A DNA stretch of 64,000 bases from an uncultured Clostridia bacterium (lineage in GTDB: Bacteria; Bacillota; Clostridia; Oscillospirales; Ruminococcaceae). Shown here in pieces: positions 9,329 to 52,501 of the stretch (positions within the stretch are counted from its first letter, which is position 1; every line of letters begins with the position of its first letter). The DNA is taken from positions 53,350 to 117,349 of the forward strand of contig CALWNN010000038.1 in the NCBI GenBank assembly GCA_944382845.1, given 5' to 3'. The notes under the pieces were generated by a model. The model worked only from the letters and a program-made list of their open reading frames with translations. It did not search any database and was not told the DNA's origin. The position numbers and the translations under genes were made by a program.

Positions 9329-9514
9329 TTTAAATCAGAACAAAGCTAAGACCATTGCAACTCGTCATTAACAATGACAAGTCATTGTTTAGAGTTTGCT
9401 TCTCAGGATTTCAGTATGGGATTCTCATCTAACCTACCACCGATAGATTGCATAGACCTTGCCTATAGAAGCATATCTGCCTGAATGGTGGGTGACATTG
9501 GCGACTTGGTTATA
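9329..9514 (-). repeat. Modular hairpin repeat, copy A
   Basis: A diverged copy of a dispersed repeat found eight times in the window. The tail end TTTAAATCAGAACAAAGC is at 9329 and the head end (minus strand TATAACCAAGTCGCC) begins at 9514. The head lies inside the 3' end of the nitrilase gene and encodes its last 16 residues. The middle is more degenerate than in copies B, F and H. Confidence 0.75.
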
Positions 9515-10338
9515 AGTTCACCATACTTTTCAGGGTGACGACAGACATTTCCCATAACTTCATTTTGACGATATTCACGAAGAAGATCCAAATCAAGGCT
9601 TACAATATAGATACCTTCTTCTTCAGGCGCTTCAAATATACACATATCTCTCGAACCCGGTTCATCACTAAGCCATGCAACGCCGTCAAACACGGTAGAG
9701 TGACCGTTACAGTCGGGATGACCTTTGGGATAGTTGCATGTGGCTATCGCAAGCATATTTTCATAAGCACGTGTACGCAGTGTACTCAGCCTGTTTATTT
9801 CCATAGGACAAGCATTTGGAGCAAGTATCAGTTCTGCTCCCTTACACATTAATATCCTTGCACTTTCAGGGAACTCTCTGTCAAAGCAAATCATACATCC
9901 GACAGTGACTGTTCCTTTATCGGTTTCAAGTACTGTTGTATAAAATTCATCTCCGGGAGAGAGCATTTTTTCAGCGTCAAAATCGCATATATGGACTTTT
10001 GAGTAATGAATCGCCTCATTACCGTTTTTATCAAAAACAACTATCGAATTCAACGGCTTTGGATAATGCTTTTCTAGAAAAGTTATGCCGATAGCCATTT
10101 TAAGTTTTTTTGCAAGGTCTTTAAATGCTGTCACAAAACGGTTTGTAAGACTCAGAGCCAGACTTTCTAAAAGTTCTGTATTCTGAGGGATATTATAACC
10201 GTTGCTCCACATTTCCGGAAACAGGGCGATATCCGCTCCCATTTCCTTAGCTTTTTTACAAGCATTGATTCCTTTTTCAAGCTGCTTGTTCCTGTCATTT
10301 TCTCCATAAAGCTGAAGCAAAGCGATTTTAAGTTTCAT
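9463..10338 (-). CDS. Carbon-nitrogen hydrolase (nitrilase superfamily amidase)
   Basis: A 291-residue cytoplasmic amidohydrolase of the nitrilase superfamily. The Glu-Lys-Cys triad is complete: Glu42 (ALFPEMWSNGYN), Lys114 (HYSKVHICDFD) and Cys151 (VGCMICFDREFPES). It fits the omega-amidase or N-carbamoylputrescine-amidase-like branches, but the substrate cannot be told. The last 16 residues (ITKSPMSPTIQADMLL) are encoded by the head of repeat copy A, so the original C-terminus seems to have been replaced or extended. The downstream gene is a spore protein and the upstream one a broken aldo-keto reductase; no functional link is apparent. Confidence 0.92.
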   Translation of the reverse strand: MKLKIALLQLYGENDRNKQLEKGINACKKAKEMGADIALFPEMWSNGYNIPQNTELLESLALSLTNRFVTAFKDLAKKLKMAIGITFLEKHYPKPLNSIVVFDKNGNEAIHYSKVHICDFDAEKMLSPGDEFYTTVLETDKGTVTVGCMICFDREFPESARILMCKGAELILAPNACPMEINRLSTLRTRAYENMLAIATCNYPKGHPDCNGHSTVFDGVAWLSDEPGSRDMCIFEAPEEEGIYIVSLDLDLLREYRQNEVMGNVCRHPEKYGELITKSPMSPTIQADMLL

Positions 10339-10380
10339 CTAAAATAAACTCTCCTTTGATTTACCAAAACAAAATCTCTT

Positions 10381-11223
10381 TTACGCTTTCTCATACTCCG
10401 GCTGCCATGCCGCAAATCCGGCAAGCGCCTCGTCGGTACGAATGTAATAACGGACTCCCTTATTCAGCTTTGCAATCTCCGCCATCTCGTCATCTGTCAG
10501 CTTGAAGTTGAGGATATCAAGATTATCTCTGATATGATCAAGATTTTTGCTGCCCGGAATCACAACAAAGCCCATCTGGGTGTGCCAGCGAAGGATTACC
10601 TGCGCCGGAGTCTTTCCGTACTTCTCGCCAAGCTTAACAAAGATCGCTTCCTCCATCAGAGACTTATCGCCATGTCCCAGCGGATACCATGACATCAATT
10701 TGATTCCATATTTGTCCAACGTTTTACGCAGTTCCTCCTGTGTAAAATAGGGATGCGCTTCTGCCTGCATAAACTGAGGTGCGATTTCCCACTTCCGGCT
10801 GAGTTCATCGAGATACTCGCCTTCAAAGTTGGAGATGCCGATTGCTTTTGCCTTGCCGTCACGGTACGCCTTTTCAAGCTGTCTGTAGCCTGCAAGCCAG
10901 TTTCCGGCAGGCTGATGAATAAAAAGAAGATCCACATAATCTACGCCAAGACGCTCCAGATTTTCATCCACCGCATTCTCGTTTTCAAATTCGCTTGCCC
11001 AGAGTTTTGTGGACAGGAACACTTTTTCTCTCGGAACGCCGCTTTCTTTGATTCCTCATCCAACCGCTCTCTCGTTTACGTAAGCGTTTGCAGTATCAAC
11101 GCACTCATAACCCATTTTGAGCGCCTCTCTGACGCTTACCTCTGCGTCTGCCGGGGAAATCATAAAAGTTCCGAGTCCGATAACCGGGCATTTGTTTCCG
11201 TTGTTCAATGTTACATATTCCAT
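10381..11223 (-). pseudogene. Aldo/keto reductase interrupted by an in-frame TGA
   Basis: The complete frame would encode a 280-residue NADPH-dependent aldo/keto reductase starting at ATG 11223 (MEYVTLNNGNKCPVIGLGTF). Catalytic Asp43 and Tyr48 (DTANAYVNERAVG), Lys (LSTKLWA) and His (LLFIHQPAGNW) are all present. Codon 56 is TGA (11058-11056) where relatives usually have Arg (AVGRGI), so a single CGA-to-TGA change explains it; there is no frameshift. The downstream part stays open for 225 codons and could start at an internal GTG (11022), but such a product lacks Asp43 and Tyr48. It follows a TetR gene by 23 nt. Both look more GC-rich than their neighbours, suggesting import. Confidence 0.85.
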
Positions 11224-11246
11224 TTGAATATCCTCCTTTATGATAT

Positions 11247-11864
11247 TTATAGTCTGTAGGTTTCAATCGCAGCTTTGAATACTGTTTCACATAAGGCATC
11301 AGTTTTTTCAGAGCCCTTAACTTCACTGTCTGTCATACACCAGGCAATCATCAGCCCATAAAGTTGGGCATTGATGAACAGAGCAAAATCGTCAATTGGC
11401 ACATTGCTTTTCAATTCTCCACGCTTTACCGCTTCTTCAAGAATGGACTGCACGGCACGGTAGTCATACCTGTACTTTGTGATCTCTTCCCAGCCAAGCA
11501 GCATATTGTTGGGGGAAAGGTTGTTCCTGACCCACTGCCTGCATATTTCGATTCCCGTTTCCTCAATGTCGCCCAGGAAATGCCCGCAATAGTACCGCAG
11601 CCTGTCCAGGATATCCTTGTCTTTCATTCCGTTCACAATCTCCGCAAGGCGGTAGAAATCTGTCTTGTTCAGTTCCTCTACCACATCTTCCTTCTTTTTA
11701 AAGTAGGTGTAAAACGATCCTATGGAAACTCCGGCCTCTTTTACGATATCGTCAATGGACGTGTTTTCAAAGCCTTTTTCCGCAATCAGAACCTTTGCCG
11801 CATTCAGGATTTTCTTTCTTGTCTCTACTGCACGGACTTGTCTGCTTGTCATTCTTTTCTCCAA
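11247..11864 (-). CDS. TetR/AcrR family transcriptional regulator
   Basis: A 205-residue repressor with an N-terminal helix-turn-helix (about 12-60: RKKILNAAKVLIAEKGFENTS then IVKEAGVSIGSFYTYFKKKED) and a variable ligand-binding C-terminal domain. It probably controls itself and the aldo/keto reductase that follows in the same operon. An ATTCAATGAAT palindrome at 11917-11927 upstream of the gene could be its operator (inference). The ligand is unknown. Codon use appears more GC-rich than in most of the window. Confidence 0.92.
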   Translation of the reverse strand: MEKRMTSRQVRAVETRKKILNAAKVLIAEKGFENTSIDDIVKEAGVSIGSFYTYFKKKEDVVEELNKTDFYRLAEIVNGMKDKDILDRLRYYCGHFLGDIEETGIEICRQWVRNNLSPNNMLLGWEEITKYRYDYRAVQSILEEAVKRGELKSNVPIDDFALFINAQLYGLMIAWCMTDSEVKGSEKTDALCETVFKAAIETYRL

Positions 11865-12053
11865 ATTGATGCCTCCTTTTTTCTGCTGTTTTAATAATAA
11901 CGCAAAGCCGAATTAGATTCAATGAATTTTATTCAGTTTTATATAAACTTTTTGTGAACAGCAAAAAACGCTCCACCTAAGCTATCCATTGAAAGAAATC
12001 GCCTATTGAGGTTTTAAAAACTGATTCTTCCTTTAAGTTTGCGCTCAAAGCAT

Positions 12054-12326
12054 TTAAATCGGAGCAAAGCGTTGATAAGGATGTCTGCTTTTCAGCAGAC
12101 AGGCTTAATCACGTTGCGACGAAAAGCAATCTGTCGCTGACTGCAGCAAGCTGCAGATAGGAGCTTTGCTCCTCAGTTTTTCAGTGGGGGTTTTAATCCC
12201 CCACTGAAAAACTGAATGGAACCCCGCCTCCTATAGGAGGCAGATCATCCAATAGGAGGCGGACCCGCCTAATATGAGGCAGACCTGCCGAATACTCGGC
12301 AGGGGGACATCGGCGACTTAGTTATA
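12054..12326 (-). repeat. Modular hairpin repeat, copy B (long form)
   Basis: The longest copy. Minus-strand order: head TATAACTAAGTCGCC (from 12326); a run of small hairpins (TGCCGAGTATTCGGCA, GCCTCATATTAGGC, GCCTCCTATTGGATGA, CTGCCTCCTATAGGAGGC); a large hairpin with arms CAGTTTTTCAGTGGGGG and CCCCCACTGAAAAACTG; an inner block bounded by GGAGCAAAGC and GCTTTGCTCC; then the TTTAAATC end. The head starts 12 nt after the rubrerythrin stop codon. No open frame in it looks real. Together with 11865-12053, which holds no other gene, it fills the gap between tetR and rubrerythrin. Confidence 0.9.
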
Positions 12327-12338
12327 TATGTTCTATAA

Positions 12339-12884
12339 TTACTTGAAGTATCTGTCGTAAAGTCCCTTGAATCCACAGCCGTGTCTTGCTTCGTCCTTAG
12401 CCATTTCGTGAACAGTATCATGAACAGCGTCATAGCCAAGTTCCTTAGCCTTCTTGGCAAGAACCATCTTTCCTTCACAAGCGCCGTTTTCTGCCATATA
12501 TCTGAGTTCAAGATTCTTCTTTGTGGAAGGTGTAACAACTTCGCCGAGAAGCTCTGCAAATTTAGCAGCATGCTCAGCTTCCTCCCATGCAGCCTTCTCA
12601 TAATAAAGACCAACTTCAGGATAACCTTCTCTGTATGCTACTCTCGCCATTGCAAGGTACATACCTACTTCTGAACATTCACCGTTGAAGTTTTCTCTGA
12701 GTCCTGCAACAACTTCTTCATCAAGACCCTGTGCAACGCCTACCTTGTGCTGGTCAGCCCAAGAAAGCTCTGTATCTTCAACCTTGTTGAACTTGTCAGC
12801 TCCTGCGCCGCAAAGAGGACACTTTTCAGGAGCAGCTTCTCCTTCGTATACATATCCGCATACTGAACATACCCATTTAATCAT
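12339..12884 (-). CDS. Reverse rubrerythrin (rubredoxin domain first)
   Basis: Oxidative-stress protein of anaerobes that reduces hydrogen peroxide and can feed O2 detoxification. Residues 1-35 form a rubredoxin-like iron site with [10 protein letters not shown] and [11 protein letters not shown]. Residues about 55-178 form the di-iron ferritin-like domain with [23 protein letters not shown] and [12 protein letters not shown] supplying Glu/His ligands. The rubredoxin-first order marks the reverse rubrerythrins of clostridia. It is a single gene behind a consensus promoter that holds a palindromic operator (12948-12976), so regulation by a peroxide or redox sensor is likely. Confidence 0.95.
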
Positions 12885-12947
12885 GATAACATACCTCCGT
12901 TTTAAATTATTTTCTTATTTCAATATCCAAGCTGTAAGCTTAAATAA

Positions 12948-12976
12948 AGTATACCATATCGGTATAGTTGTGTCAA
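12948..12976 (-). promoter_or_regulatory. Rubrerythrin promoter with embedded palindrome
   Basis: On the minus strand TTGACA (12976-12971) and TATACT (12953-12948) are 17 nt apart. The palindrome TATACCATATCGGTATA (12950-12966, plus strand) fills the spacer and overlaps the -10, an ideal repressor site. It does not match the usual PerR box closely, so the regulator is open. Confidence 0.75.
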
Positions 12977-13099
12977 GAGGAAATTATAAACATTTTATGA
13001 ATTTATGAATTCAACTCTTCTTCAGACAAACAACTTTTCCCGCTATAACAACTATTGAAATTTTTCTCGGCATTAACTTTTAAGAAGTCGAAACTAAAC

Positions 13100-13208
13100 T
13101 TTAAATCGGAGCAAAGCTCCTCAGTTTTTCAGTGGGGACTAAAACCACACTGAAAAACTGAATGCAACCCTGCCGTTTAGGCAGGGGGACATCGGCGACT
13201 TGGTTATA
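13100..13208 (-). repeat. Modular hairpin repeat, copy C (minimal form)
   Basis: The shortest copy with both ends intact: TTTAAATC at 13100, a tight GGAGCAAAGCTCC hairpin, the CAGTTTTTCAGTGGGG hairpin, one TGCCGTTTAGGCA module, and the head ending at 13208. Compared with it, copies B and H carry insertions inside the GGAGC/GCTCC hairpin and extra small modules. It lies between the divergent rubrerythrin and asparaginase genes; the rest of that gap holds their promoters. Confidence 0.9.
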
Positions 13209-13304
13209 ATCCTTTACAAACTTTCTCCTTTATTGTATTTTAACAAATAAACATTCATTTTTTATGACTATTTTATAAATTTTGATATTCCATTGCTTTT
13301 TCCT

Positions 13305-13333
13305 TTGACAAAAATGTCGTATGGGTTTACAAT
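13305..13333 (+). promoter_or_regulatory. Promoter of the asparaginase gene
   Basis: TTGACA (13305-13310) and TACAAT (13328-13333) are 17 nt apart, 39 nt upstream of the asparaginase start. It probably also serves the small membrane protein and ung genes that follow. Confidence 0.75.
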
Positions 13334-13372
13334 CATTATTATAGAAAAACCGCGAAGGAGAGTATTGCACTC

Positions 13373-14254
13373 ATGAAAATACTTGTTATCCATACAGGAG
13401 GAACTATTGCTTCTTCTTATTCGCCTACTTCAGTTACTCTTAAAGACAACAAAGCCTTCTCGCTTGCAGATGATTTCACCGATATAGACTTTACTCAAAG
13501 ACTTTTAATGAATGTTCTGAGCGAAAATATGGAGCTTTCAAAAATAAATGAAATTTGCAGGGCTTTATATGAGGCTGCGAGTAAAAGAGATCATGACGGC
13601 ATTATCCTTACCCATGGGTCTGATACGTTGAGCTATACGGCTGCCTTCTGCGAGCAGATGCTTGGCGGAACGCCTGTTCCCATCATCCTCACTGCGGCTG
13701 ATCATCCCCTTGAGGATCCGATCTCTAACGGCAGGGATAATTTCAAAGCTGCGGTAGAGATCATAAAGGCAGGAAAACCGGGAGTTTACGTTGCATGGAA
13801 AAATCAAAAAGAACCTACTTTTTGCTGTCACGGCGGAAACATTTGTGAAGCCGACCCCTACAGCGACAGCTTTTCATGTTTTATGCCTGAAGAAAAATAT
13901 GTTCCTTGTGACAGGTTTGAATTTATACCTCTTGAAAAACAGGTTTTGCTGATAAGATGTTATCCCTCAATTGATTTCAGGTGCTATGAAATGAAAAGCT
14001 TCAGCGCAGCTGTCATTTATCTTTATCACAGCGCAACAGCGCCTACCGAGGGAGAAGGATCCATATGCGAATTTATAAAAAGGTGCAGAAAAAAGTCAAA
14101 GAATATTTATCTTGCAAGCATAAAAAAAGGTGTAAAAATTTACGAAACGGCAGAAAATTTCCTTTCTCTCGGAGGAATCTCAATTTATGATTCATCTGTT
14201 GAAACGGCTTATGCAAAGGCTGTAATAAGGGAAAACAGGTTGACAAAGCTGTAA
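13373..14254 (+). CDS. Asparaginase/glutaminase family protein
   Basis: Predicted to hydrolyse L-asparagine (or a related amide) to aspartate and ammonia. It carries the two family active-site boxes: TGGTIAS near the N-terminus (9-15) and ILTHGSDTLSYTA (about 76-90) with the Thr-Asp pair; NGRDNFKAAVEII follows. At 293 residues it is shorter than typical type I/II enzymes (about 325-350), the C-terminal domain being compact. There is no signal peptide, so it is cytoplasmic. The start is at ATG 13373 behind GAAGGAGAG. Confidence 0.88.
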   Translation: MKILVIHTGGTIASSYSPTSVTLKDNKAFSLADDFTDIDFTQRLLMNVLSENMELSKINEICRALYEAASKRDHDGIILTHGSDTLSYTAAFCEQMLGGTPVPIILTAADHPLEDPISNGRDNFKAAVEIIKAGKPGVYVAWKNQKEPTFCCHGGNICEADPYSDSFSCFMPEEKYVPCDRFEFIPLEKQVLLIRCYPSIDFRCYEMKSFSAAVIYLYHSATAPTEGEGSICEFIKRCRKKSKNIYLASIKKGVKIYETAENFLSLGGISIYDSSVETAYAKAVIRENRLTKL

Positions 14255-14326
14255 TAAAGATGTATAATTTATTAAGGTAACACAGCACAGCTACCGCCTT
14301 TATAACATTTTTGAAAGGAAATAATT

Positions 14327-14569
14327 ATGGCTACAAATAAAAAGCGTAAAAGAAAAAACACCAACAGAAATCATGCCAATAAAAATAAGACTGTTGATGT
14401 TTCGACTCAGATAAAAGCGGCTGAAAAAGCCGGCTCATTGTCTGCATACTCATACGGTTACAGCAAGAAAGACAAAGCCAAGAAAACATTTGTCAGAGTA
14501 ATCGCTCTTGCACTGGCAGCGATTCTTGTTCTCGGATTTGTGGTTTCTGCCGCATTTTCACTTTACTGA
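14327..14569 (+). CDS. Small basic single-pass membrane protein, unknown
   Basis: An 80-residue protein with a very basic N-terminus (KKRKRKNTNRNHANKNK), a soluble middle and one C-terminal membrane helix (about 56-78: VIALALAAILVLGFVVSAAF). GAAAGGAAAT lies upstream of the ATG. It is followed 9 nt later by ung and preceded by asparaginase, likely in one transcript. The family was not recognised and no function is proposed. Confidence 0.75.
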   Translation: MATNKKRKRKNTNRNHANKNKTVDVSTQIKAAEKAGSLSAYSYGYSKKDKAKKTFVRVIALALAAILVLGFVVSAAFSLY

Positions 14570-14578
14570 TATACGACT

Positions 14579-15247
14579 ATGGTAAATCTGCAAAACGATT
14601 GGGACGGTATCCTTTGCGATGAGTTTAAAAAGGAATACTACCTTAAACTAAGAGAATTTTTAAAGTACGAATATACTCATTATCATATCTATCCCGATAT
14701 GTACGATATCTTCAACTCGCTTAAATATGCGCCCTACGGCAGGATAAAGGCTGTCATTATCGGACAGGATCCTTATCATCAGCCGGGACAGGCTCACGGG
14801 CTTTGCTTTTCCGTAAAAAAGGGAGTTAAGATTCCGCCTTCACTTGTTAATATTTACAAGGAGCTTGAAAGCGATCTGGGCATACCTCCTGCAAGCCACG
14901 GGGAGCTTACCTGTTGGGCAAAACAAGGAATACTGATGTTAAACAACGTACTTACCGTTCGTGAGGGTCTGCCAAATTCCCACAGAGGAAAAGGGTGGGA
15001 GATCTTTACGGACAAAATTATCGAGATACTTAACACACACAATGCTCCGATTGCGTTTTTGCTCTGGGGAGCAAACGCCAGAGAAAAAGCTAAAAAAATC
15101 ACAAACCCGATTCATTTAAAGCTCACTGCGGCACACCCAAGCCCTCTTTCCGCTTATAATGGCTTTTTCGGATGCAGACACTTTTCAAAGACGAATGAGT
15201 TTTTAATTAACAACGGCATCGAGCCGATTGACTGGCAAGTAAAATAA
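14579..15247 (+). CDS. ung: Uracil-DNA glycosylase, family 1
   Basis: Removes uracil from DNA as the first step of base excision repair. The water-activating loop GQDPYHQPGQAHGLCFSV (62-79, Asp64), the LLWGANA strand and the leucine loop HPSPLSAYNGFFGCRHFSKTN are all intact. The length of 222 is normal. It lies 9 nt after the small membrane protein gene; a shared bidirectional terminator (15259-15295) separates it from the convergent pflA. Confidence 0.97.
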   Translation: MVNLQNDWDGILCDEFKKEYYLKLREFLKYEYTHYHIYPDMYDIFNSLKYAPYGRIKAVIIGQDPYHQPGQAHGLCFSVKKGVKIPPSLVNIYKELESDLGIPPASHGELTCWAKQGILMLNNVLTVREGLPNSHRGKGWEIFTDKIIEILNTHNAPIAFLLWGANAREKAKKITNPIHLKLTAAHPSPLSAYNGFFGCRHFSKTNEFLINNGIEPIDWQVK

Positions 15248-15258
15248 CAATAACATAA

Positions 15259-15295
15259 CCCTCCGCCTTGTATAAAAGCGGAGGGCTATTTTTTT
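15259..15295 (+). terminator. Terminator between ung and pflA
   Basis: CCCTCCGC and GCGGAGGG form an 8-bp GC-rich stem with an 11-nt loop, followed by CTATTTTTTT. It ends the asparaginase-ung transcript; the opposite side has only a weaker T tract for pflA. Confidence 0.85.
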
Positions 15296-15995
15296 ACATC
15301 ATCATTTCAAGCCCGGCAATGGTTTCCGGTGAAGTCTCGGGATATATTTCAAAGGGAAATTTAATTTTCAGATTTTCATACTTTGAAGTGCATAGCTTTC
15401 TGAAAGGGAGAAATTCCACACGCTTTACATTTTCCCTGCCCCTTAAAATTTCCTTTAAGCGTAAAACGTTTTCTTTATTGTCGTTAATCCCCTCAACAAT
15501 TACCTGCCTTATCCACACGGGAATATTTTCTTTTGTCAACTTGTCCAGAAAGCGAATCACCGGCGCATATTCCCAGTGAATATACTTTTTGTATTCCTCT
15601 TCGCTTGTCATTTTTATATCAAGCAGAACAAGGTCGGTAACTTCTAAAAGTTTGTCCTCAGCGTCACATTCTACCCCTCCGCTTGTGTCAAGGCAAGTAT
15701 TTATCCCCTCTTTTCGGCAAAGAGAAAACACTTCCTTTACAAACTCGCCCTGCATCAGCGGTTCACCTCCGGAAATAGTTATTCCTCCCTTTTCTCCGAA
15801 ATAGCTTTTGTACCTTTTCGCCTTTTTTACAATTTCCTCGGGAGTGTAGACATCACCTTTGTGAAACTCCCAAGTGTCGGGATTGTGGCAATATCCGCAT
15901 CTTAAAGGACAGCCTTGCATGAAAACAAGAAATCTTACCCCCGGACCGTCAAGAGTGCCCATTGACTGAATTGAATTTACATATCCTTTTGTCAT
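15294..15995 (-). CDS. pflA: Pyruvate formate-lyase activating enzyme (radical SAM)
   Basis: Radical-SAM activase that installs the glycyl radical on pyruvate formate-lyase. The 4Fe-4S motif is GCPLRCGYCHNPDTW (CxxxCxxC, about residues 29-43). GGITISGGEPLMQ and LDTSGG follow as in the family. At 233 residues it has normal length. It is 9 nt after pflB on the same strand, a standard pflBA operon, and acts only under anaerobic conditions. Confidence 0.96.
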   Translation of the reverse strand: MTKGYVNSIQSMGTLDGPGVRFLVFMQGCPLRCGYCHNPDTWEFHKGDVYTPEEIVKKAKRYKSYFGEKGGITISGGEPLMQGEFVKEVFSLCRKEGINTCLDTSGGVECDAEDKLLEVTDLVLLDIKMTSEEEYKKYIHWEYAPVIRFLDKLTKENIPVWIRQVIVEGINDNKENVLRLKEILRGRENVKRVEFLPFRKLCTSKYENLKIKFPFEIYPETSPETIAGLEMMM

Positions 15996-16004
15996 GACTT
16001 TCCC

Positions 16005-18270: not shown

Positions 18271-18379
18271 AAACAAAAACGGACAGCCTTTAAAAAAGAC
18301 TGCCCAGACGGTCGGCTTAAATATAAGAACATACCGCACTGTGTTATTTCACATTTCCGTCAGCGGTAAGTCCTTTACT
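18271..18379 (-). promoter_or_regulatory. ZTP (pfl-motif) riboswitch with terminator, controlling pflBA
   Basis: The minus-strand leader has the features of the ZMP/ZTP riboswitch. The 5' domain is a TACCGC/GCGGTA stem enclosing CTGACGG and a TGTG/CACA hairpin. The linker is followed by the conserved 3' element GCCGACCGTCTGGGCA (18316-18301). GACGG in the first domain can pair with CCGTC in the second, the expected pseudoknot. A terminator hairpin (18305-18281) starts inside the 3' element and is followed by GTTTTTG, so ligand binding should block termination. ZTP rises when 10-formyl-THF is low, which would switch on formate production by PflB. Confidence 0.85.
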
Positions 18380-24340: not shown

Positions 24341-24564
24341 TTTCAAATCGCAGCGAAGCCGATTAGCTTGATTAAAATCGGCTGCGACAATTGCAGCCTG
24401 TCCAAGCTTGCTCCTCAGGAGGTTAAAGTTGGTGTTTCTCCCTGCCTGACTAACCGCCTCCGCTGAAATTCCCAATTAAACCCGTCTCCTATAGAAGACA
24501 GACCCGCCTGTATGAGTCATACCTGCTGCTTTATTCGCAGGGGGGACATCCGGGACATGGATAT
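24341..24564 (-). repeat. Modular hairpin repeat, copy D (diverged)
   Basis: A diverged copy: TTTCAAATCGCAGCGAAGCC at the tail, GCTCCTCAGGAG in the middle, one CTCCTATAG-type module and a CTGC/GCAG module, and a head ending GGGGGACATCCGGGACATGG (24541-24560). It begins 47 nt upstream of the rlmB start, and its head lies 100 nt after the stop of the 24665-24940 gene. The gap 24294-24664 contains nothing else recognisable. Confidence 0.75.
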
Positions 24565-24664
24565 CAAATCAAAAATAAATACCCATAATAAAATATTATA
24601 ACACAAAAAAACCCAAAAGCCAATAGCCTTTGAGAATTTTTCATCACATTACACAATTTTTTTA

Positions 24665-26124: not shown

Positions 26125-26212
26125 TTTAAATCATAGCAAAGCCTAATAATCGGCAGAGTGACATCTGCAACATGGTTTAAATCGGCAGAGTGACATGTGC
26201 GACTTAGTTATA
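26125..26212 (-). repeat. Modular hairpin repeat, copy E (short, internally duplicated)
   Basis: A compact copy: TTTAAATCATAGCAAAGC at one end and GACTTAGTTATA at the other. The block AATCGGCAGAGTGACAT occurs twice within it, the second time after a fresh TTTAAATC, so it looks like two head-tail junctions in tandem. It lacks the small hairpin array. Confidence 0.75.
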
Positions 26213-27147: not shown

Positions 27148-27330
27148 TATAACCAAGTCGCCGATGTCCCCCTGCCGAGTATTCGGCAGGTCTTGCCGAG
27201 TATTCGGCAGGTCTTGTCGAGTATTCGGCAGGTCTTGTCAAGTATTCGGCAGGTCTGCCTCATATTAGGCGTGTCCGCCTCCCATAGGATGATTCGCCTC
27301 CCATAGGAGTCGGGGTTCCATTCAGTTTTT
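27148..27330 (+). repeat. Modular hairpin repeat, copy F (opposite orientation, expanded)
   Basis: The only copy on the + strand. The head TATAACCAAGTCGCC begins 35 nt after the glycosylase stop. Four successive 21-nt units (TGCCGAGTATTCGGCAGGTC type) follow, two of them with T for C in the left arm, then GCCTCATATTAGGC and two GCCTCCCATAGGA units. The copy breaks off inside the CAGTTTTT arm and lacks the TTTAAATC end. The ribosome-binding site and ATG of the next gene follow within 20 nt. Confidence 0.9.
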
Positions 27331-40667: not shown

Positions 40668-40760
40668 ATTTTAAATTCACATCGGAGTAAAACATAATAA
40701 GCCTGCGCTGTCAATCGCATCCAAAGGCGGGTAGATGGTTCACAACATAAATATCAGTCC

Positions 40761-43550: not shown

Positions 43551-43634
43551 TGGTGGGAGAGGGTGGATTCGAACCACCGAAGCCGAAGCAACAGATTTAC
43601 AGTCTGCCCCCTTTGGCCACTCGGGAACTCTCCC
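43551..43634 (-). tRNA. tRNA-Tyr (GTA)
   Basis: Minus-strand acceptor stem GGGAGAG pairs with CTCTCCC, anticodon loop CTGTAAA gives GTA, a long variable arm as in class II tRNAs, the T loop GGTTCGAATCC, and an encoded CCA end. Confidence 0.97.
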
Positions 43635-43671: not shown

Positions 43672-43747
43672 TGGAGCTGGTGGACGGACTCGAACCCCCG
43701 ACCTGCTGATTACAAATCAGCTGCTCTACCAACTGAGCTACACCAGC
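43672..43747 (-). tRNA. tRNA-Thr (TGT)
   Basis: Minus-strand acceptor GCTGGTG pairs with CACCAGC, D arm TAGCTCAGTTGGTAGAGCA, anticodon loop TTTGTAA gives TGT, T arm GGGGGTTCGAGTCC, and an encoded CCA. It precedes tRNA-Tyr by 37 nt. Confidence 0.97.
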
Positions 43748-44364: not shown

Positions 44365-44424
44365 AGTAAAATTACCTCACTTAAAGTTATTATTTGACCG
44401 GAGCGATCCGGTGCGCCTGGGTTA

Positions 44425-44985: not shown

Positions 44986-45021
44986 AACTCTTCCTTCAGC
45001 AATGCTTCTTTAATCCTACTT

Positions 45022-45050
45022 ATAGTAGCATAAAATTTCTAATTTGTCAA
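45022..45050 (-). promoter_or_regulatory. Promoter of the sigma factor gene
   Basis: On the minus strand TTGACA (45050-45045) and TACTAT (45027-45022) are 17 nt apart, 36 nt before the start codon. Confidence 0.75.
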
Positions 45051-45099
45051 GTATTTTTTATAAGAAATATTTATTTTATGCCAAGCGCCACACAAAGCC

Positions 45100-45293
45100 T
45101 TTAAATCGGAGCAAAGCGTGATAATTACATCTCTTTCAGAGCTAAATATCTCTTTCAGAGCTATACATCTCTTTCAGAGCTATACATCTCTTACAGAGCT
45201 GTGCTTAATCTCGTTGCGACGAAAAGCAACCCGCCTTCTTATAAGAGGCAGACCTGCCGTTTAGGCAGGGGGGACATCGGCGACTTGGTTATA
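45100..45293 (-). repeat. Modular hairpin repeat, copy G (with four 19-nt tandem units)
   Basis: The TTTAAATCGGAGCAAAGC end is at 45100 and the head begins at 45293, 10 nt after the fumarase-subunit stop. Its inner block holds four tandem 19-nt units (TATACATCTCTTTCAGAGC type), each with a CTCT/AGAG mini-hairpin; the last has TAC for TTC in the loop. It carries one GCCTTCTTATAAGAGGC-like module and one TGCCGTTTAGGCA module. It fills the gap 44986-45303 together with the sigma promoter. Confidence 0.9.
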
Positions 45294-45303
45294 TGACGTT
45301 TGA

Positions 45304-45861: not shown

Positions 45862-45882
45862 TTTTTATCCTTTCAAAACTGA

Positions 45883-45920
45883 TAAAACAGTGCTTTCTGA
45901 GAAACTCTACAGAAAGCACT
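45883..45920 (-). terminator. Terminator after the DivIVA-like gene
   Basis: On the minus strand AGTGCTTTCTG and CAGAAAGCACT form an 11-bp stem, followed by GTTTTATC. It isolates the fumarase subunit gene from upstream transcription. Confidence 0.8.
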
Positions 45921-45942
45921 TTGTAACAATTGCAATTTGGTT

Positions 45943-47199
45943 TTATTTTTTTTCCCATTTTTCAAGGAAATCCTCATCCGAAAGAGCATCATTTTCGTCT
46001 TCCGACCTGGACTCGATCTCCTTTGTCAGAGCAGAGAGCATATCAAGATCGAAGCTTTTCGAATAACTTGATCTGATTTTTGGAGAATCATTCTGAGCAG
46101 CCTTTTCCCGAACTTTTCTCGCTTCCTCCTCGGCAGCAAGTCTTTCGGCTTCTTCCTGAGCCTGTCTTTCTTCCTCCTCAGCGGCTACCGCTTTTTCCGC
46201 TTCAGCTTGCAATTTAGCAAAGTATGCCTGCATTGCCTCTACGTCATCATTTCTATATTCTTCCACATCTGAAGAGTCCTCTTGCAAGGATTCATCATTT
46301 GTTTCATTAGGGTTATTATCTGATTCGTTATTATCTTCTCTGCTTGTGTCCTCCGACACACCACTTCCTTTCACCGAGTAATTAAAATTTGAGTTACCAT
46401 TTACAAGCTCAAGGCCCTGTTCAACAAGTTCCTTAGCTGAATCAAGCTTAACCATATTGTCTCCGAAAAGTTCTCTTATAACATCGGAAAGCTTGGCAAC
46501 ATTTTCGTTAAGTGCTGTGTATTCGCTGAGAACAGAGGATCTCAGACCAGCCGATTTTTCTCTTATCACTTCGGCTTCGTTATTTGCTTTTTTAATAGTA
46601 GCCTCAGCCTGGGCATTTGCTTCTGCAACAGTTGCTTCAGCCTCGCTCTTTGCGGTATTTACAATGCTTTCCGCCTGAGCGTTCGCCTCGTCAAGAACCT
46701 GATTCTGGAGTTCCTTGGCATCGTTCTCCATTTTCTTGGCAGCTTTTCTTGCTTCGTTTACAACATTATTTGCAGTTTTCTGAGCTTCGATAAACACGCT
46801 TCCAAGGTCAAATTCCGAAGCTCCGCCCGAACCTGCATTTGCCTCTGCATTTTCAAGCTTCTGCTTAAGGTCTTCGATCTCGTTTTCCATTTCGGTAATC
46901 TTCTGATCCTTTTCAGTAACATCGCTTTCGTAGTTTGCCACTTGAAGCTTCAGCGTATCGTTTGACGCCTGAAGTTCAGATATCTTGCTTTTGCCTTCGT
47001 CGATCCTTGCTTCAAGATCTTCCTTGCCGGCAAAATTCTGCACTTCGCCGCTTTCAAGCGATTCTATCATTTCATTTTTTTCTTTTACTTCGGCTTGGAG
47101 CTTGTAAATATCGGAATACAGCTTATCAATGTAAGCCAGAACTTCCTTCTTATCGAAGCCGCCGAAGTTGACAGTTTTCAGATAAACATTGCCATCCAT
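45943..47199 (-). CDS. DivIVA-domain coiled-coil protein
   Basis: A 418-residue protein with an N-terminal DivIVA-like segment (about 5-40: YLKTVNFGGFDKKEVLAYID) and a long coiled coil (about 35-240, Ala/Glu/Lys heptads). Then come an acidic linker and a second Ala/Glu-rich coiled coil ending in a charged tail. Such proteins bind curved membrane at poles or septum and recruit partners in growth, division or sporulation. Its place near the dcw cluster fits, though it has its own transcription unit. Confidence 0.85.
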   Translation of the reverse strand: MDGNVYLKTVNFGGFDKKEVLAYIDKLYSDIYKLQAEVKEKNEMIESLESGEVQNFAGKEDLEARIDEGKSKISELQASNDTLKLQVANYESDVTEKDQKITEMENEIEDLKQKLENAEANAGSGGASEFDLGSVFIEAQKTANNVVNEARKAAKKMENDAKELQNQVLDEANAQAESIVNTAKSEAEATVAEANAQAEATIKKANNEAEVIREKSAGLRSSVLSEYTALNENVAKLSDVIRELFGDNMVKLDSAKELVEQGLELVNGNSNFNYSVKGSGVSEDTSREDNNESDNNPNETNDESLQEDSSDVEEYRNDDVEAMQAYFAKLQAEAEKAVAAEEEERQAQEEAERLAAEEEARKVREKAAQNDSPKIRSSYSKSFDLDMLSALTKEIESRSEDENDALSDEDFLEKWEKK

Positions 47200-47309
47200 A
47201 ACGTAACCTCCGTATCATAAGATGCTATATTTTATATTGTATCATATTGCAGCATAATTTGCAATAGTTTTAGCAAATGTTTTTAAAACTTTATTAAGAT
47301 TATACAAAT

Positions 47310-48233
47310 TTATTTTTTCTTTTTTAGCAAAAAGAACGCAACCACCCCTGTTGCTATCACAGAAACCAGTGTAGGAAACCATGTAAATGGGAGCGGAAGT
47401 CCCTTTGTATTCATTCCATAGAAGCTATATATCATATTTGGTATCGCCATAAGAATAGTAATTATTGTCAATCTCCACATAACCATGTTCAGGTTATTAG
47501 AAGTAACAGAAGCAAAAGCCTGAACCATACCTGACAAAATTCCGGAATAGATATTAGCCATTTCGATAGCCTGTTTAACTTCGATAAGAACGTCCTCAAG
47601 AAGGTCCTGATCCTCTTCATAGAGCTTAATAACACGACCTCTCAGTATTTTTTCAAGAGTAACGTCGTCTGCCTTTAATGAAGTTGAAAAGTAAACAAGA
47701 GATTTTTCAAGTCCAAGAAGCTGAATAAGCTCTCTGTTCTGCATTGACCCTTGGATCTGTTTTTCAATTGCATTTGAGATCTTGTCTATCTGTTTAAGGC
47801 ACTGAAGAAATCTTGCGGTAATTCTCAAAAGAAGCAGTAGTACAAATCTTGTCTTGAGGTTAGTTTGTAAGTTTTTGACCATACCAGAGGACAGGTCGGC
47901 AAGCGCAGGGTTTTCCTTCAACGAAATGGTAAAAACGTAATCATCGGTAATAATTATGCCAACAGGCATTGTGTAATACAAAATTGTATTTTCGGCTTGG
48001 GTCTCAGCATACGGAGTATCCACAATTATAAGCGTCTGGTCGTCCTCGATCTCCACACGGGAGCTTTCCTCCTCGTCCAATGAGGATTTGACAAATCCGC
48101 TGTCCAATCCGAATTGTTCAATAAGAAGCTGAGTTTCTTCCGGAGTCGGTTCAACAACGGATATCCAACTTCCGGGCTGTGGGCTTTCAAGTTCAGTCAG
48201 CACAGTCCCGGAGGTTTTATAATAAGTTATCAT
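47310..48233 (-). CDS. corA: CorA-family magnesium transporter
   Basis: A 307-residue divalent cation channel. The N-terminal cytoplasmic funnel is acidic and helical; two C-terminal membrane helices flank the signature YGMNTKG (about 275-281), followed by TWFPTLVSVIATGVVAFFLLKKKK. The start is ATG 48233 (AGGCGG 6 nt upstream). The ribosome-binding site can be locked in a hairpin, and a 22-residue leader ORF precedes it (see 48239-48350), so translation is probably regulated. Confidence 0.93.
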   Translation of the reverse strand: MITYYKTSGTVLTELESPQPGSWISVVEPTPEETQLLIEQFGLDSGFVKSSLDEEESSRVEIEDDQTLIIVDTPYAETQAENTILYYTMPVGIIITDDYVFTISLKENPALADLSSGMVKNLQTNLKTRFVLLLLLRITARFLQCLKQIDKISNAIEKQIQGSMQNRELIQLLGLEKSLVYFSTSLKADDVTLEKILRGRVIKLYEEDQDLLEDVLIEVKQAIEMANIYSGILSGMVQAFASVTSNNLNMVMWRLTIITILMAIPNMIYSFYGMNTKGLPLPFTWFPTLVSVIATGVVAFFLLKKKK

Positions 48234-48238
48234 ACTTA

Positions 48239-48350
48239 TCCGCCTTTCCAAGGGGGCGGAAAGTCGTATTCTACAGTAGATTCCGCCTCTTTGCAGTTAT
48301 TATTGAATTATTACAGTTCCCAAGAGGGTCGGATTTCATACTGCACCTCC
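48239..48350 (-). promoter_or_regulatory. corA leader with alternative hairpins
   Basis: In the minus-strand leader, TTCCGCC (48261-48255) can pair with GGCGGAA (48287-48281) in the end of a leader ORF. Alternatively CTTTCC and CCGCC can pair with GGAAAG and GGCGG (48249-48240), which include the corA ribosome-binding site. The two structures exclude each other. A ribosome on the leader ORF would decide which one forms, the logic of a translational attenuator. Confidence 0.6.
48271..48339 (-). CDS. Leader peptide of corA (22 residues)
   Basis: ATG 48339 has an ideal GGAGG 6 nt upstream, better than that of corA itself. The peptide is MKSDPLGNCNNSIITAKRRN plus two Leu, ending at TAG 48271, 37 nt before the corA start. 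Its last codons form one arm of the leader switch. It is not a known Mg leader such as the proline-rich MgtL. Confidence 0.6.
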   Translation of the reverse strand: MKSDPLGNCNNSIITAKRRNLL

Positions 48351-48524
48351 AAAATCTTTTCCTTCAAAAATTATCAGGCAATATTCGCCTACATAACAAT
48401 TATAACAAATAATATTTCTTTTGACAAGACCCGAAACAAAATTTTTACTTTCAGAATCACGCACCGCCATTCATACGGCAAAATGCGTATTGAAAGAAAA
48501 ATGCCTCTCAAAGCCATGACCTTC

Positions 48525-48558
48525 AACAAAAAAGAGCGCCTGTCAAAGACGCTCTTTC
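48525..48558 (-). terminator. ftsZ (dcw cluster) terminator
   Basis: On the minus strand AAAGAGCG and CGCTCTTT pair around a TCTTTGACAGG loop, followed by TTTTGTTG, 21 nt after the ftsZ stop. It ends the dcw transcript. Confidence 0.85.
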
Positions 48559-48578
48559 TATTTGCAGATTAACTATTA

Positions 48579-49649
48579 TCAGCTCTTGAGGATACCGAAA
48601 ATGTCCTCATAAATGTCAGTATTTCCGGGAGCCTTTACTCCTGCGTTTGCAAGAGCCTTTTCATCCTCGGCAGCGTCGTCCTTGATGCCGTCGTCAAAAT
48701 CAACGAAATCAGAAGCGATAACTGTAACAAATATTTCATCGTTGCCGTCCTCGATATAGTCAACACCGGTGATGATGTTTGCATTGGGATCTGCCTCGTC
48801 AGTGAGAAGATCGGTAAGTTCAGCAAGGTCAACGGTTGTAACGTCGTCTGACATAACAACATTGAGAAGAAGTCTTCTCGCACCCTTGATAGATGTTTCA
48901 AGCAACGGACTTGTAATAACCTGCTTTGCAGCGTCCTTTGCCTTTTCCTTGCCCTGACCGTGTCCCATAGCCATATGAGCATAGCCTGCGTTCTTCATTA
49001 TAGATGTAACGTCGGCAAAGTCAACGTTTATGAATCCGTCTCTCAGGATAAGATCTGCAATTGATTTTACGCCGGTCTTTAATACATCGTCAGCCATAGC
49101 GTAAGCCTGACGCATTGTGATCTTGGCGTCATTTTCCATAAGCTTCTGGTTTGGAATAACGATAAGGGAGTCAACATTGTCAAGAAGTCTTCTTATTCCT
49201 CTTTCAGCCTGCTCCATCTTTCTCTTGCCTTCAAATGCAAAAGGCTTTGTAACAACAGCAACTGTAAGCTTTCCAAGCTCCTTTGCGATCTCAGCAACCA
49301 CCGGCGCCGCTCCCGTTCCGGTTCCGCCGCCCATTCCCGCTGTGATGAATACCATATTACAGTCCTTGATAGCCTCGGCAATATCGTCCTTGTTTTCCTG
49401 AGCAGACTGTTCTCCTACCTCAGGATTTCCGCCGGCGCCAAGTCCCTGAGTAAGCTTCGGACCGATCTGGATAGTCTGAGTAGCCTGGGAACGGTTAAGA
49501 GCCTGAAGGTCAGTATTTACCGCTATGTAGTCGATATTTCCCTTTACGCCTTCCGCAACGATACAATTGAGAGCGTTTCCTCCGCCTCCTCCTACACCGA
49601 TTACAAGAATTTTAGCTCCGTCGTTGTTCATCTGCACATTCTGAAACAT
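48579..49649 (-). CDS. ftsZ: Cell division protein FtsZ
   Basis: Tubulin-like GTPase that forms the division ring. The 356-residue protein has the N-terminal nucleotide motif VGVGGGGGNALN, the tubulin signature GMGGGTGTGAAPV, and the T7 loop NVDFADVTSIM. The C-terminal peptide (YEDIFGILKS) is short and unlike the usual PxFLR-type tail. It is the last gene of the dcw cluster, with no ftsA in front. Confidence 0.98.
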   Translation of the reverse strand: MFQNVQMNNDGAKILVIGVGGGGGNALNCIVAEGVKGNIDYIAVNTDLQALNRSQATQTIQIGPKLTQGLGAGGNPEVGEQSAQENKDDIAEAIKDCNMVFITAGMGGGTGTGAAPVVAEIAKELGKLTVAVVTKPFAFEGKRKMEQAERGIRRLLDNVDSLIVIPNQKLMENDAKITMRQAYAMADDVLKTGVKSIADLILRDGFINVDFADVTSIMKNAGYAHMAMGHGQGKEKAKDAAKQVITSPLLETSIKGARRLLLNVVMSDDVTTVDLAELTDLLTDEADPNANIITGVDYIEDGNDEIFVTVIASDFVDFDDGIKDDAAEDEKALANAGVKAPGNTDIYEDIFGILKS

Positions 49650-49858
49650 TTTTAAACAGCCTCCTATTTTTAATCCGATATAAATAAAGTTCTACAAACG
49701 CATATTTACACTACTTAAAGATATTAATATATTATCATATTTTTTTACGCATTGCAAGGGTTTTTTTGAAAATTGTCGCAACTTTTTTATACTTTCCATA
49801 ATAATCGCCCTTGTTTTTCAATTTTTATTTCCTATTTTATCCAATCAACTCTTGAGCG

Positions 49859-50950
49859 TCAATAATCCACGCTTATTCCCTCGTCAAGAGGAAAACTCGG
49901 CGTCGAGGTATCATCACCCGATGAACTGTTATCGCCTGTTGAAGTCGTATCGTCTGATGCAGCTTCGTTGTCAGAAGCCCCCTCTTCCTCAGGCTCATCT
50001 CCCGTTGAATTGTCGCCTATATTTTCATCGTTTTGATTATTCTCTTCAGCCGTCTGCTCCTGATTCTGATTGCCGTCAGCGCCATCCGTATCGTCTCCGC
50101 TGTCGGGATTTTCTTCAGGCTGATTGACTGTTTCATCTGCAATAGCCGACATTCCGCTTGTTGCCGAATGATAAATAAGAGTTCCCTTATACGAACCGTC
50201 ATAAGTATCTTCAAGAGATTGTATAACTGCTTTTGTATAATTGAGCTTGTATGAGATGTCATACGAGCTTCCAAGCCTTATTTCGATCCTGTTGTCATAA
50301 TTGAGCTTTATGTCGGTTCTGTCCGTCATGTCAACCGAAAGCACATCTGAAAGACCTGCATTTTCAAGTCCCTCTGAAATGTCCTCCAGGATCTTTCCTT
50401 TAAGATTGTCTTTTGATTCAAGGGGTGAATTTGGAGTTTCGTCCTTTATCTCAAAGCCTTTCACGATAAGCAGACCGCTTCTCGGAGCAGTCATATCTCC
50501 CTCAAGTATCTTTCCGCTTTTTGATACAAGAAAATACCGTCCGTTCTGTTCAAGATTATAAAGAGGTTCAGCCTCCGTAACAGTTATGACTATAGACGAA
50601 GGAAGCTTTCTTCTCACCTTTATCTCGTCAGCGTAAACCATAAATCCCGAAAGATTTTGTTCGACCTGAGAGGTATCCGTTCTGAAAAGGTTATCTCCTT
50701 TTTTCATTCCCGAAACAGCAATCACCTGCTCCGGGTCGTAAAGGGACGTACCTTTCACGGTTATATTGTCGATTCTGAAAAATACATAAAACGTAAGAAT
50801 ATATACCGCAAACGCTACAATGATAAACACCATTATATAGTAAAGGGACATATTCCTTTTTCTTTTTCTTCTCCTTTTTGCAGGAGGTCTTTGTCCTGTG
50901 CCGGGGTATCGTCCGTTCTGTCCCGGCGGTCTTTTTACAACATCATTCAT
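49859..50950 (-). CDS. ftsQ: Cell division protein FtsQ/DivIB
   Basis: A 363-residue bitopic membrane protein: a basic cytoplasmic head (1-33), one membrane helix (about 35-57), a POTRA domain (FFRIDNITVKGTSLYDPEQVIAVSG region), and an FtsQ beta domain (about 115-250). A low-complexity Asn/Asp/Glu/Ser tail follows (about 268-355). It bridges FtsL and FtsI at the septum. It lies between murA and ftsZ on the same strand. Confidence 0.92.
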   Translation of the reverse strand: MNDVVKRPPGQNGRYPGTGQRPPAKRRRKRKRNMSLYYIMVFIIVAFAVYILTFYVFFRIDNITVKGTSLYDPEQVIAVSGMKKGDNLFRTDTSQVEQNLSGFMVYADEIKVRRKLPSSIVITVTEAEPLYNLEQNGRYFLVSKSGKILEGDMTAPRSGLLIVKGFEIKDETPNSPLESKDNLKGKILEDISEGLENAGLSDVLSVDMTDRTDIKLNYDNRIEIRLGSSYDISYKLNYTKAVIQSLEDTYDGSYKGTLIYHSATSGMSAIADETVNQPEENPDSGDDTDGADGNQNQEQTAEENNQNDENIGDNSTGDEPEEEGASDNEAASDDTTSTGDNSSSGDDTSTPSFPLDEGISVDY

Positions 50951-50984
50951 TTTCTCAGCCTCATCAATCTGTTATCCGCCTGTT

Positions 50985-52238
50985 CTATACTCTTTTTATA
51001 TCAGCTCCCATAAGAGCAAGATCTCTTTCGATGCTTTCATATCCTCGGTCGATAAGCTTTATATTTGAAACCGTAGTTTTTCCTTCCGCCGCAATGCCGG
51101 CAAGAACAAGAGAAGCTCCCCCTCTGAGGTCGGTTGCAACAACATTTGCGCCGTAAAGCCTCTTCACTCCCTCAATTACGGCTACCTTTCCCTCAGTCTT
51201 TATTTTACAGCCCATTCTTTTAAGCTCGTCAACCTGCCTGTACCTGTTTTCAAAAATATTTTCAACCATAACGCTTGTTCCATGCGCCTTTGAAAGGCAG
51301 GCGAGAAACACTGACTGTGCGTCGGTAGGAAATCCCGGATACGGCATTGTCCTTATTGTCCTTACAGCCCTCAGGGGCTTTTTTGCTCCAAGATAGATTT
51401 TACCGTCATAGCAAAACACCGTGCAGCCCATTTCCTCAAACACAGGAAGAACCGATTCAAGATCCGATTTTCTGGCATTGAGAAGGGTCACTTCTCCGCC
51501 TGTAATAGCCGCTGCGCCCAGATATGTAGCGGCAACAATCCTGTCAGGCATGACAGGATATTCGCAGCCGTGAAGCCTGTTTACTCCCGTTATGCTCACA
51601 GTACTTCCTCCCGCCCCCGATATCCTTGCTCCGCACCTGTTCAGAAACGATGCAAGATCGACTATCTCAGGCTCTCTCGCTGCATTTTTTATAACAGTCT
51701 CCCCTTTTGCAAGACAGGCTGCCATAATTATATTTTCCGTAGCCCCCACAGAAGGAAACGAAAGAACGATGTCCGCTCCCCTTATCCCTTTCGGAGCATA
51801 GCAGTCGAGTATACCGTGTTCTTCGTTTATAACGGCTCCCATTTGCCTGAGAGCGGCAATATGCATATCTATAGGTCTCGGCCCAAGCTCGCACCCTCCC
51901 GGAAAGGAAAGACGGCATCTTCCCATTCTTCCGAGTATTGCTCCGAGAAAAACAATGGAAGACCGCATTTCTCTCATAAGTTCCTCAGGCACTTCCCAGT
52001 TTTTTATCCCCTCCGGATCTATCTTTACAACATTGCCTTCTCTTTTGCATTCAAGTCCAAGCCTTGTAAGTATGCGGCAGCTTGCGTAAACGTCGCTCAG
52101 CCCCGGACAGTTTTTAAAAACTACCCTTTCGCTGCAAAGGGCGGCAGCCGCAAGAAGGGGCAGAGCAGCATTTTTTGCACCATGCACACAAAGCTCTCCG
52201 CTAAGCTTTTTTTCGCCTGTAATCACCAGCTTCTGCAT
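50985..52238 (-). CDS. murA: UDP-N-acetylglucosamine 1-carboxyvinyltransferase
   Basis: First committed step of peptidoglycan synthesis, transferring enolpyruvate from PEP to UDP-GlcNAc. The 417-residue protein has the catalytic Cys116 in FPGGCELGPRPIDMH and the N-terminal signature GELCVHGAKNAALPLLAA. The start is ATG 52238 with GGGGG 7 nt upstream; a longer frame runs into repeat copy H. Finding murA within the dcw cluster, between murG and ftsQ, is typical of clostridia. Confidence 0.97.
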   Translation of the reverse strand: MQKLVITGEKKLSGELCVHGAKNAALPLLAAAALCSERVVFKNCPGLSDVYASCRILTRLGLECKREGNVVKIDPEGIKNWEVPEELMREMRSSIVFLGAILGRMGRCRLSFPGGCELGPRPIDMHIAALRQMGAVINEEHGILDCYAPKGIRGADIVLSFPSVGATENIIMAACLAKGETVIKNAAREPEIVDLASFLNRCGARISGAGGSTVSITGVNRLHGCEYPVMPDRIVAATYLGAAAITGGEVTLLNARKSDLESVLPVFEEMGCTVFCYDGKIYLGAKKPLRAVRTIRTMPYPGFPTDAQSVFLACLSKAHGTSVMVENIFENRYRQVDELKRMGCKIKTEGKVAVIEGVKRLYGANVVATDLRGGASLVLAGIAAEGKTTVSNIKLIDRGYESIERDLALMGADIKRV

Positions 52239-52264
52239 TCTGGATCCCCCTTTAAGATGTGATT

Positions 52265-52501
52265 TTTTAATCGGAGCAAAGCGTGATAAAGATGTCTGCT
52301 TAATCACGCTGTGACGATTGCAATCTGTCGCCGAGGGGCTTTGCTCCTCAGGGTTTCAGTGGGGGATTAAAACCCCCACTGAAAAACTGAATGGAACCCC
52401 GACTCCTATGGGAGGCGAATCATCCCATAGGAGGCGGACCCGCCTAATAGGAGGCTGACCTGCTGAATAATCAGCAGGGGGACATCGGCGACTTGGTTAT
52501 A
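52265..52501 (-). repeat. Modular hairpin repeat, copy H (inside the dcw cluster)
   Basis: A long copy between murG and murA. The head begins at 52501, 35 nt after the murG stop. It is followed by TGCTGATTATTCAGCA, GCCTCCTATTAGGC and GCCTCCTATGGGATGA modules, the CAGTTTTTCAGTGGGGG hairpin, then a block with CGTGAT/ATCACG and GATTGCAATC hairpins, ending TTTTTAATCGGAGCAAAGC. It sits in the transcribed dcw operon, so its RNA structure lies between two essential genes. Confidence 0.9.

Follow-up and report, generated by a model that had tools for sequence, protein, structure and literature searches.

A modular hairpin repeat located behind TATAA in an uncultured Clostridia bacterium and its comparison with described small repeats

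Described small repeats and the repeat of the window

The repeat family reported here was detected in a 64,000-nt stretch of DNA of an uncultured Clostridia bacterium (the window; C38:53350-117349 of the source genome G000, which comprises 2.14 Mb in 93 contigs). The closest described systems are BOX elements (Streptococcus pneumoniae and S. suis), the PATEs (palindrome-associated transposable elements) and SMRs (small mobile repeats) of Haloquadratum and the REP/BIME sequences with RAYT transposases, described here after the papers cited. BOX elements carry terminal inverted repeats and make target duplications (PMC3049150). Insertion of PATEs does not duplicate the target; a targeting oligonucleotide is present at one of their ends, and core-deleted, terminal-only forms also occur (PMC3119063). 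The lagging-strand template is the substrate of Y1 transposases, whose target tetranucleotide flanks the left end (PMC6006769). Judged from sequence comparisons, there is about an even chance that the copies of the present repeat are non-autonomous mobile elements moved in trans by single-strand HUH/Y1-type transposition behind TATAA.

The head-first layout of the repeat is TATAA followed by CCAAGTCGCCGATGTCCCC, a series of hairpin modules and GATTTAAA. The tail-to-head consensus of 71 copies was TTTAAATC...GGGGGACATCGGCGACTTGGTTATA, and the boundaries were sharp, a single base at either end being enough for the conservation in these copies to drop from 85-100% to background. The source genome contains 119 matches to a 15-mer of the head at up to 1 mismatch, 125 to a 21-mer of the head at up to 2 and 136 to an 18-mer of the tail at up to 2, whereas the reversed control patterns gave 0 and 2, 0 and 0, and 0 and 1 matches, respectively. 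The copies are not due to chance. The 526 kb around the matches of G000 contained 107 tails and 130 heads, with up to 5 mismatches allowed in the 21 bases of the latter; 87 head-tail pairs were recognised among them. An earlier note, made from the window alone, had expected many hundreds of copies per genome, which was too high: about 125-136 sites were counted, to which copies missing at contig ends have to be added. The window is dense, as the note had stated, with about 2-fold the density of the genome average. The matches were not confined to the window: more than 100 sites are distributed throughout the genome. Several contigs terminate within a copy (e.g. tails at C2:109, C20:157, C48:2 and C79:110) and the true copy number is therefore probably higher. 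The repeat may account for contig breaks in this metagenome-assembled genome.

BOX elements are comparable with the repeat in their fixed end modules and variable number of internal modules, and are likewise small, interspersed and foldable; they are regarded as parasitic non-autonomous elements, in common with the present reading of the repeat (PMC3049150). In contrast to BOX, which is reported to make target duplications and whose ends are compared to ISSpn2 (PMC3049150), the repeat has a TATAA target, a strand bias, weakly inverted ends and no variable duplication. The BOX likeness suggested in the earlier note thus applies formally to the modular design; the repeat is not a BOX element, as no variable target duplication was found. 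The sequences of BOX and the repeat are probably unrelated.

Like PATEs, the repeat contains no gene and shows no duplication; a short conserved targeting oligonucleotide marks one end, palindromes lie close to the ends, and terminal-only forms occur (PMC3119063). A target at one end that pre-dates the insertion, without duplication, was indicated for the repeat as well, with the caveats of TTTAA in congeners and of a fixed TAA duplication. The palindromes of PATEs resemble those of IS605-type transposons (PMC3119063), whereas no such parent was found for the repeat, the ends of which are weakly inverted; the ends, compared by eye, were not common to a Y1 element of the host. SMRs also have inverted ends without a known transposon, no duplication, no gene and an unknown mobilisation (PMC3119063). 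However, SMR-A inserts into PATE and IS605 palindromes (PMC3119063), and the repeat is located behind TATAA, nearly always outside long frames, and has a variable modular cargo. REP/BIME sequences are similar in being high-copy mosaics of palindromic units with a proposed Y1 mobilisation (PMC2817692), whereas the repeat is a defined two-ended element without a GT(A/G)G head, and neither a repeat-flanked Y1 gene nor a RAYT gene between two inverted repeats was found.

In its polarity, its strand bias and the absence of duplication, the repeat recalls the single-strand transposition of IS200/IS605, and it was therefore read as PATE-like, with the modularity of a BOX-like repeat. A transposase sharing its ends was not found, and for this reason it was not filed as a PATE. 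The repeat would unite two kinds of small repeats, the BOX-like modular hairpin arrays and the IS605-like duplication-free insertion.

Target site, insertion polarity and strand

The five bases before the head end were TATAA, or more loosely NATAA, with exact TATAA in 104/122 copies of the source genome and 83/98 copies of G041, another genome carrying the repeat. In 38 of the 220 copies (22/122 and 16/98, respectively) the TAA of TATAA was the stop codon of the upstream gene. Open frames of at least 90 codons entering the element in the other two frames were found in 10 cases (6 and 4, respectively). The relation of 38 to 10 deviated from one third (p = 1e-10), which is the expectation if the element itself had brought TATAA into gene ends at random. 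The same control at the tail end, using the TAA of TTTAA in 75 and 81 copies with exact GATTTAAA, resulted in 5 versus 9, as by chance, and TTTAAA therefore seems to be part of the element. On the basis of the stop-codon test, a TTTAA target at the tail end, considered in the tail-to-head reading, was given up in favour of TATAA at the head end. The TATAA at the head end very probably existed before the insertion. Both the stop-codon and the strand counts refer to copies that are not near the edge of an analysed stretch.

Of the 22 stop-codon genes of the source genome, 12 were compared with two congeners and 7 had orthologs there. The same stop codon was found in the congeners for 5 of these 7 genes (C15, C2, C22, C24 and C48); one further match of C24 runs off its contig. 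The C24 gene ends with GTATAA in both congeners. At the site of copy 5 of the window (26125-26212), the element-free congener G003 reads CTATAATTTTGGAGG, compared with CTATAA, the element and TTTCTGAGGAGG in the window; CTATAA of G003 is followed by the ribosome-binding region. Few copies were located within open frames of at least 100 codons, 3/122 in G000 and 9/96 in G041 as determined with a simple open reading frame finder. Insertion behind TATAA would leave the stop codon of the gene intact and make such sites tolerable, and targeting of TATAA at native stop codons would be a simple rule for filling a compact genome without gene breakage.

In Firmicutes the G-rich strand is the lagging-strand template. 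The head-first sequence was on the locally G-rich strand in 90/120 copies of G000 (p = 4e-8) and 65/97 copies of G041 (p = 0.001), together 155/217, the replication direction being deduced from the GC skew alone. The bias was retained without the stop-codon cases (73/98 and 55/81, respectively).

Target duplications were sought at 2-6, 8 and 9 bases in 76 copies of G000, and no offset was shared by a sizeable share of the copies; the best combination was a 4-base match in 3/76 (0.28 expected). Similarly, no offset with a duplication in a sizeable share of copies was found at lengths of 2-9 bases with 75 copies of G000 and 75 of G041. The duplication and length determinations were performed with copies having exact TTTAAATC within 420 bases, which left out 46/125 copies of G000, 23/99 of G041 and 2/16 of G184, a third genome with the repeat. 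Insertion into terminator hairpins was also considered and dropped: inverted flank stems of at least 8 were observed in 3 of 76 copies versus 0.65 expected, and those of at least 7 in 4 versus 2.7.

Several observations weigh against single-strand insertion behind a pre-existing TATAA. Two of the 7 orthologs stop elsewhere, five codons shorter in the case of C34 and ten codons longer in the case of the C38:39808 copy. Of the 5 genes with a shared stop codon, 3 have TTTAA and one has ACTAA in the congeners, so that the A at the second base of the target may come from the element. The copy 5 site in congener G001 reads CTATTTTTTT / CTATTTTTTTGGAGG, and five other compared sites (24341 and 27148 of the window and three more) were too diverged to be read at the base level. 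For copies flanked by convergent or divergent genes, the strand bias was 34/45 in G000, but just 16/29 in G041, and replication and transcription are therefore not fully separated in the latter. A 3-base match at the exact ends was seen in 8/75 copies of G041, compared with 2.5 expected; none of the 1,800 combinations tried gave a larger excess. A fixed TAA duplication within a fixed TATAAA target is conceivable. No cognate transposase was found in a search aimed at Y1 (PF01797) alone. Two intact IS605-like genes were detected in G041 and one broken 234-base piece with two internal stops in G000; G184 and four congeners gave no Y1 match, although G184 carries copies. A link to the IS605-like elements of G041 was rejected, as their end hairpins (CCCCTGCCTTTAGGTATGGGG; CCCACCTGCCAAGGCAAGTGGG) were by eye unlike the repeat.

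Occurrence among genomes and possible mobilisation

The head was sought in forty relatives, including four congeners, and was found in none of them. Among 397 genomes of the family, more than 2 matches of GGCGACNNGGTTATA were present only in G000 (68) and G184 (7); G015, G165, G238, G252 and G334 had 2 each and 21 others had 1, which is approximately the number expected by chance. Of 394 genomes of the order, only G000 had more than 1 match, and five others had one match at 2 mismatches, also about the chance level. The scan of genome_contigs with the exact 24-base head, in which the source genome may be left out, resulted in CAMMVF01 (G041) and CALXIQ01 (G042, with coordinates identical to G184), where 118 and 13 heads, respectively, were determined at up to 3 mismatches. 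G000 and G184 belong to different genera of one family and the sampled congeners of each are free of the repeat, which suggests that the repeat spread horizontally. No match was obtained with the exact head in viral contigs, with copy 2 (12054) in plasmid and phage records, or at the repeat in Rfam at the curated score, where two tRNAs and one ZTP riboswitch were the only hits of the window. The end sequences were not found printed in the literature searched, and topic searches there likewise gave no description. The opinion of the earlier note that no such family had been described is in agreement with these results, and the family is apparently undescribed.

In the proposed mechanism the element (CCAAGTCGCC...GATTTAAA) would be cut out and inserted in single-stranded form, on the lagging-strand template, with the insertion point immediately 3' of TATAA. 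The enzyme would be an HUH/Y1 (IS200/IS605-like) transposase recognising the terminal sequence and the hairpins, and is probably encoded elsewhere. The hairpin cargo would be altered by slippage and repeat-mediated deletion, ultimately to a bare 18-bp remnant. More far-reaching and rather doubtful is the proposal of a new class of single-strand elements with fixed parts of only 18 bases (CCAAGTCGCC and GATTTAAA), which would spare stop codons behind TATAA, carry freely exchangeable palindromic cargo, grow by hairpins and move between genera with an enzyme not yet described. With three genomes of at least two genera that differ in copy number and cargo, and with congeners free of the element, both the mobilising enzyme and the way in which palindromes grow are open to direct tests.

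The presence of TAA at both ends and the weak inverted repetition of the ends (TNTAA and TCGCC in common) would agree also with a miniature inverted-repeat transposable element of a DDE transposase, e.g. an IS630- or IS5-like one, having short imperfect inverted ends (TATAACCAAGTCGCC versus TTTAAATCNTCGCC) and a fixed TA/TAA duplication; pneumococcal RUP is reported to have IS630-Spn1-like ends (PMC3049150). However, conserved bases lie outside any possible TA/TAA duplication on both sides, and the stop-codon signal was detected at the head (38:10) but not at the tail (5:9). A strand bias relative to the GC skew is generally not expected of double-strand transposition, and an origin from a DDE transposase seems unlikely. 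A different duplication-free mechanism, i.e. a tyrosine or serine recombinase, an IS91/Helitron-like rolling circle or an undescribed transposase, would be in line with the lack of a Y1 transposase with matching ends and with the copies of G184, which has no Y1 match. Specific positive evidence for it was not obtained with the search aimed at Y1 alone, and it is considered improbable.

A host element at gene 3' ends, i.e. a terminator, mRNA stabiliser or attenuator selected behind stop codons, would explain why 38/220 copies begin at a stop codon and why, between flanking genes of the same direction, the head-first strand has their orientation in 45/60 (G000) and 40/54 (G041) cases. It would also be consistent with the very stable folding of copy 2, the z values of which against shuffles were -11.4 and -12.1 on its two strands. 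On the other hand, copies occur between divergent genes too, the head is absent from the four congeners, and the compared sites there are without the element. In aligned stems of the G041 and G184 copies only, 35 selected copies of G000 not being part of this alignment, G-T versus A-C mismatches were 12:11, 5:4 and 7:8, without the excess of G-T and as DNA palindromes would give, and few pairs had compensatory changes (1, 0 and 1). The equal numbers of the two mismatches therefore give no sign of one strand being kept as RNA. Among matched, loosely defined hairpin modules, 419 cells were changed on both sides. The reading as a structured RNA was abandoned, as no clear strand preference was observed (G-T/A-C of 502/605 and 298/208 with loosely defined hairpins), and a host function of this kind is very improbable.

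Copies, modules and derivatives

The outer stem CGTTGATAAG/CTTAATCACG encloses a number of hairpins of CTCTTTCAGAG or GTCTGCTTTTCAGCAGAC. The other palindromic modules between the ends are GCGACGATTGCAATCGTCGC, CTGCAGCAAGCTGCAG, GGAGCTTTGCTCC, a large TCAGTTTTTCAGTGGGGG hairpin, a variable number of GCCTCC..GGAGGC hairpins and a variable number of CTGCCGAATATTCGGCAG. In 79 copies of G000, 0-4 CTGCCGA, 0-6 CTCTTTCAGAG, 0-4 GTCTGC and 0-4 GCCTCC hairpins per copy were counted with fuzzy patterns. The element lengths, determined for copies with exact TTTAAATC, were 41-333 bases in G000 (79 of the 125 with a head), 74-263 bases in G041 (76/99 copies) and 115-211 bases in G184 (14/16 copies). The fixed ends with a variable module number, first noticed in the window, were thus recognised in 79, 76 and 14 copies with exact TTTAAATC of three genomes. 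Of the 18-nt tail proposed earlier, only TTTAAATC is conserved, whereas GGAGCA is the most frequent of several continuations (49/79 in G000, 2/76 in G041). The sequence after TTTAAATC was mostly TTTAAATCGGAGCA in G000 and G184, and TTTAAATCTTCGCC in G041 (57/76).

All eight copies listed in the earlier note were located in the window within 1-2 bases of its coordinates, and the absence of a tail in the copy at 27148 was confirmed. The copies are the following (coordinates refer to the whole window):

9329-9514, minus strand: copy 1, head-first on the minus strand, with TATAA at 9510-9514 at the head end and tail TTTAAATC at 9329
12053-12326, minus strand: copy 2, a long form with a GTCTGC hairpin inside the outer stem, GCGACGA-type, CTGCAG and GGAGC hairpins, a large CAGTTTTTCAGTGGGGG hairpin, GCCTCC/GCCTA-type hairpins and one CTGCCGA hairpin
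13100-13208, minus strand: copy 3, a short form with a GGAGC hairpin fused with the tail, the large hairpin, a single CTGCCG hairpin and the head
24342-24565, minus strand: copy 4, an old copy with both ends degenerate, the head region being CCGGGACATGGATATC and the tail having 3 mismatches
26125-26212, minus strand: copy 5, two short units abutted (26125-26180 and 26181-26212), with CGATTTAAA joined to CCATG at the head-first junction
27148-27330, plus strand: copy 6, head-first on the plus strand, with four CTGCCGA-type and about three GCCTC-type hairpins, ending abruptly at the large hairpin without a tail
45100-45293, minus strand: copy 7, with four CTCTTTCAGAG-type hairpins in tandem inside the outer stem CGTGATAA/TTAATCTCG
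52265-52501, minus strand: copy 8, a long form whose tail differs by one base (TTTTAATC instead of TTTAAATC)

The head GGCGACTTGGTTATA, in the tail-to-head reading, was exact at 9500, 13194, 27148 (minus), 45279 and 52487; the heads at 12312 and 26198 had one and two mismatches, respectively.

Bare 18-bp forms without cargo, TATAA-CCAAGTCGCCGATTTAAA, were found in G041 in seven exact and three near-exact (1-2 mismatches) cases, e.g. L289, L299 and L316. All 10 were preceded by TATAA and 4 of the 10 were located at a stop codon. No bare form was found in G000, where the shortest copy was 41 bases. The bare forms look like core deletions, as in PATEs, although they could alternatively represent an ancestral unit. 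Among the junctions listed, two were tandem, CGATTTAAACCATG (window 26180) and CGATTTAAATCAAG (C3:8944), and one was head-head, GCATGGTTATAACCAAG at C44:7720; these fit the re-use of an element's edge as a target.

A tail-tail palindrome with two facing tails, TTTAAATCGGAGC...GCTCCGATTTAAA, was observed at C7:19204-19330 of G000 (L118), and perhaps originated by a template switch within the GGAGC hairpin. At about 6550-7600 of C29 in the same genome (L105), three copies or fragments are located within approximately 1 kb, one of them a deletion derivative. In G041, an IS605-like element with tnpA and tnpB frames adjoins a truncated copy of the repeat (G041:C2; L276:1-67 and 240-1869). At 40676-40693 of the window, behind a terminator-like hairpin, lies what may be an old fragment of a tail (TTCACATCGGAGTAAAAC, 4 mismatches), absent from the list of the earlier note. 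The RNA features on the minus strand of the window are the aptamer of the ZTP riboswitch at 18295-18377 and the tRNA genes at 43554-43634 and 43675-43747.

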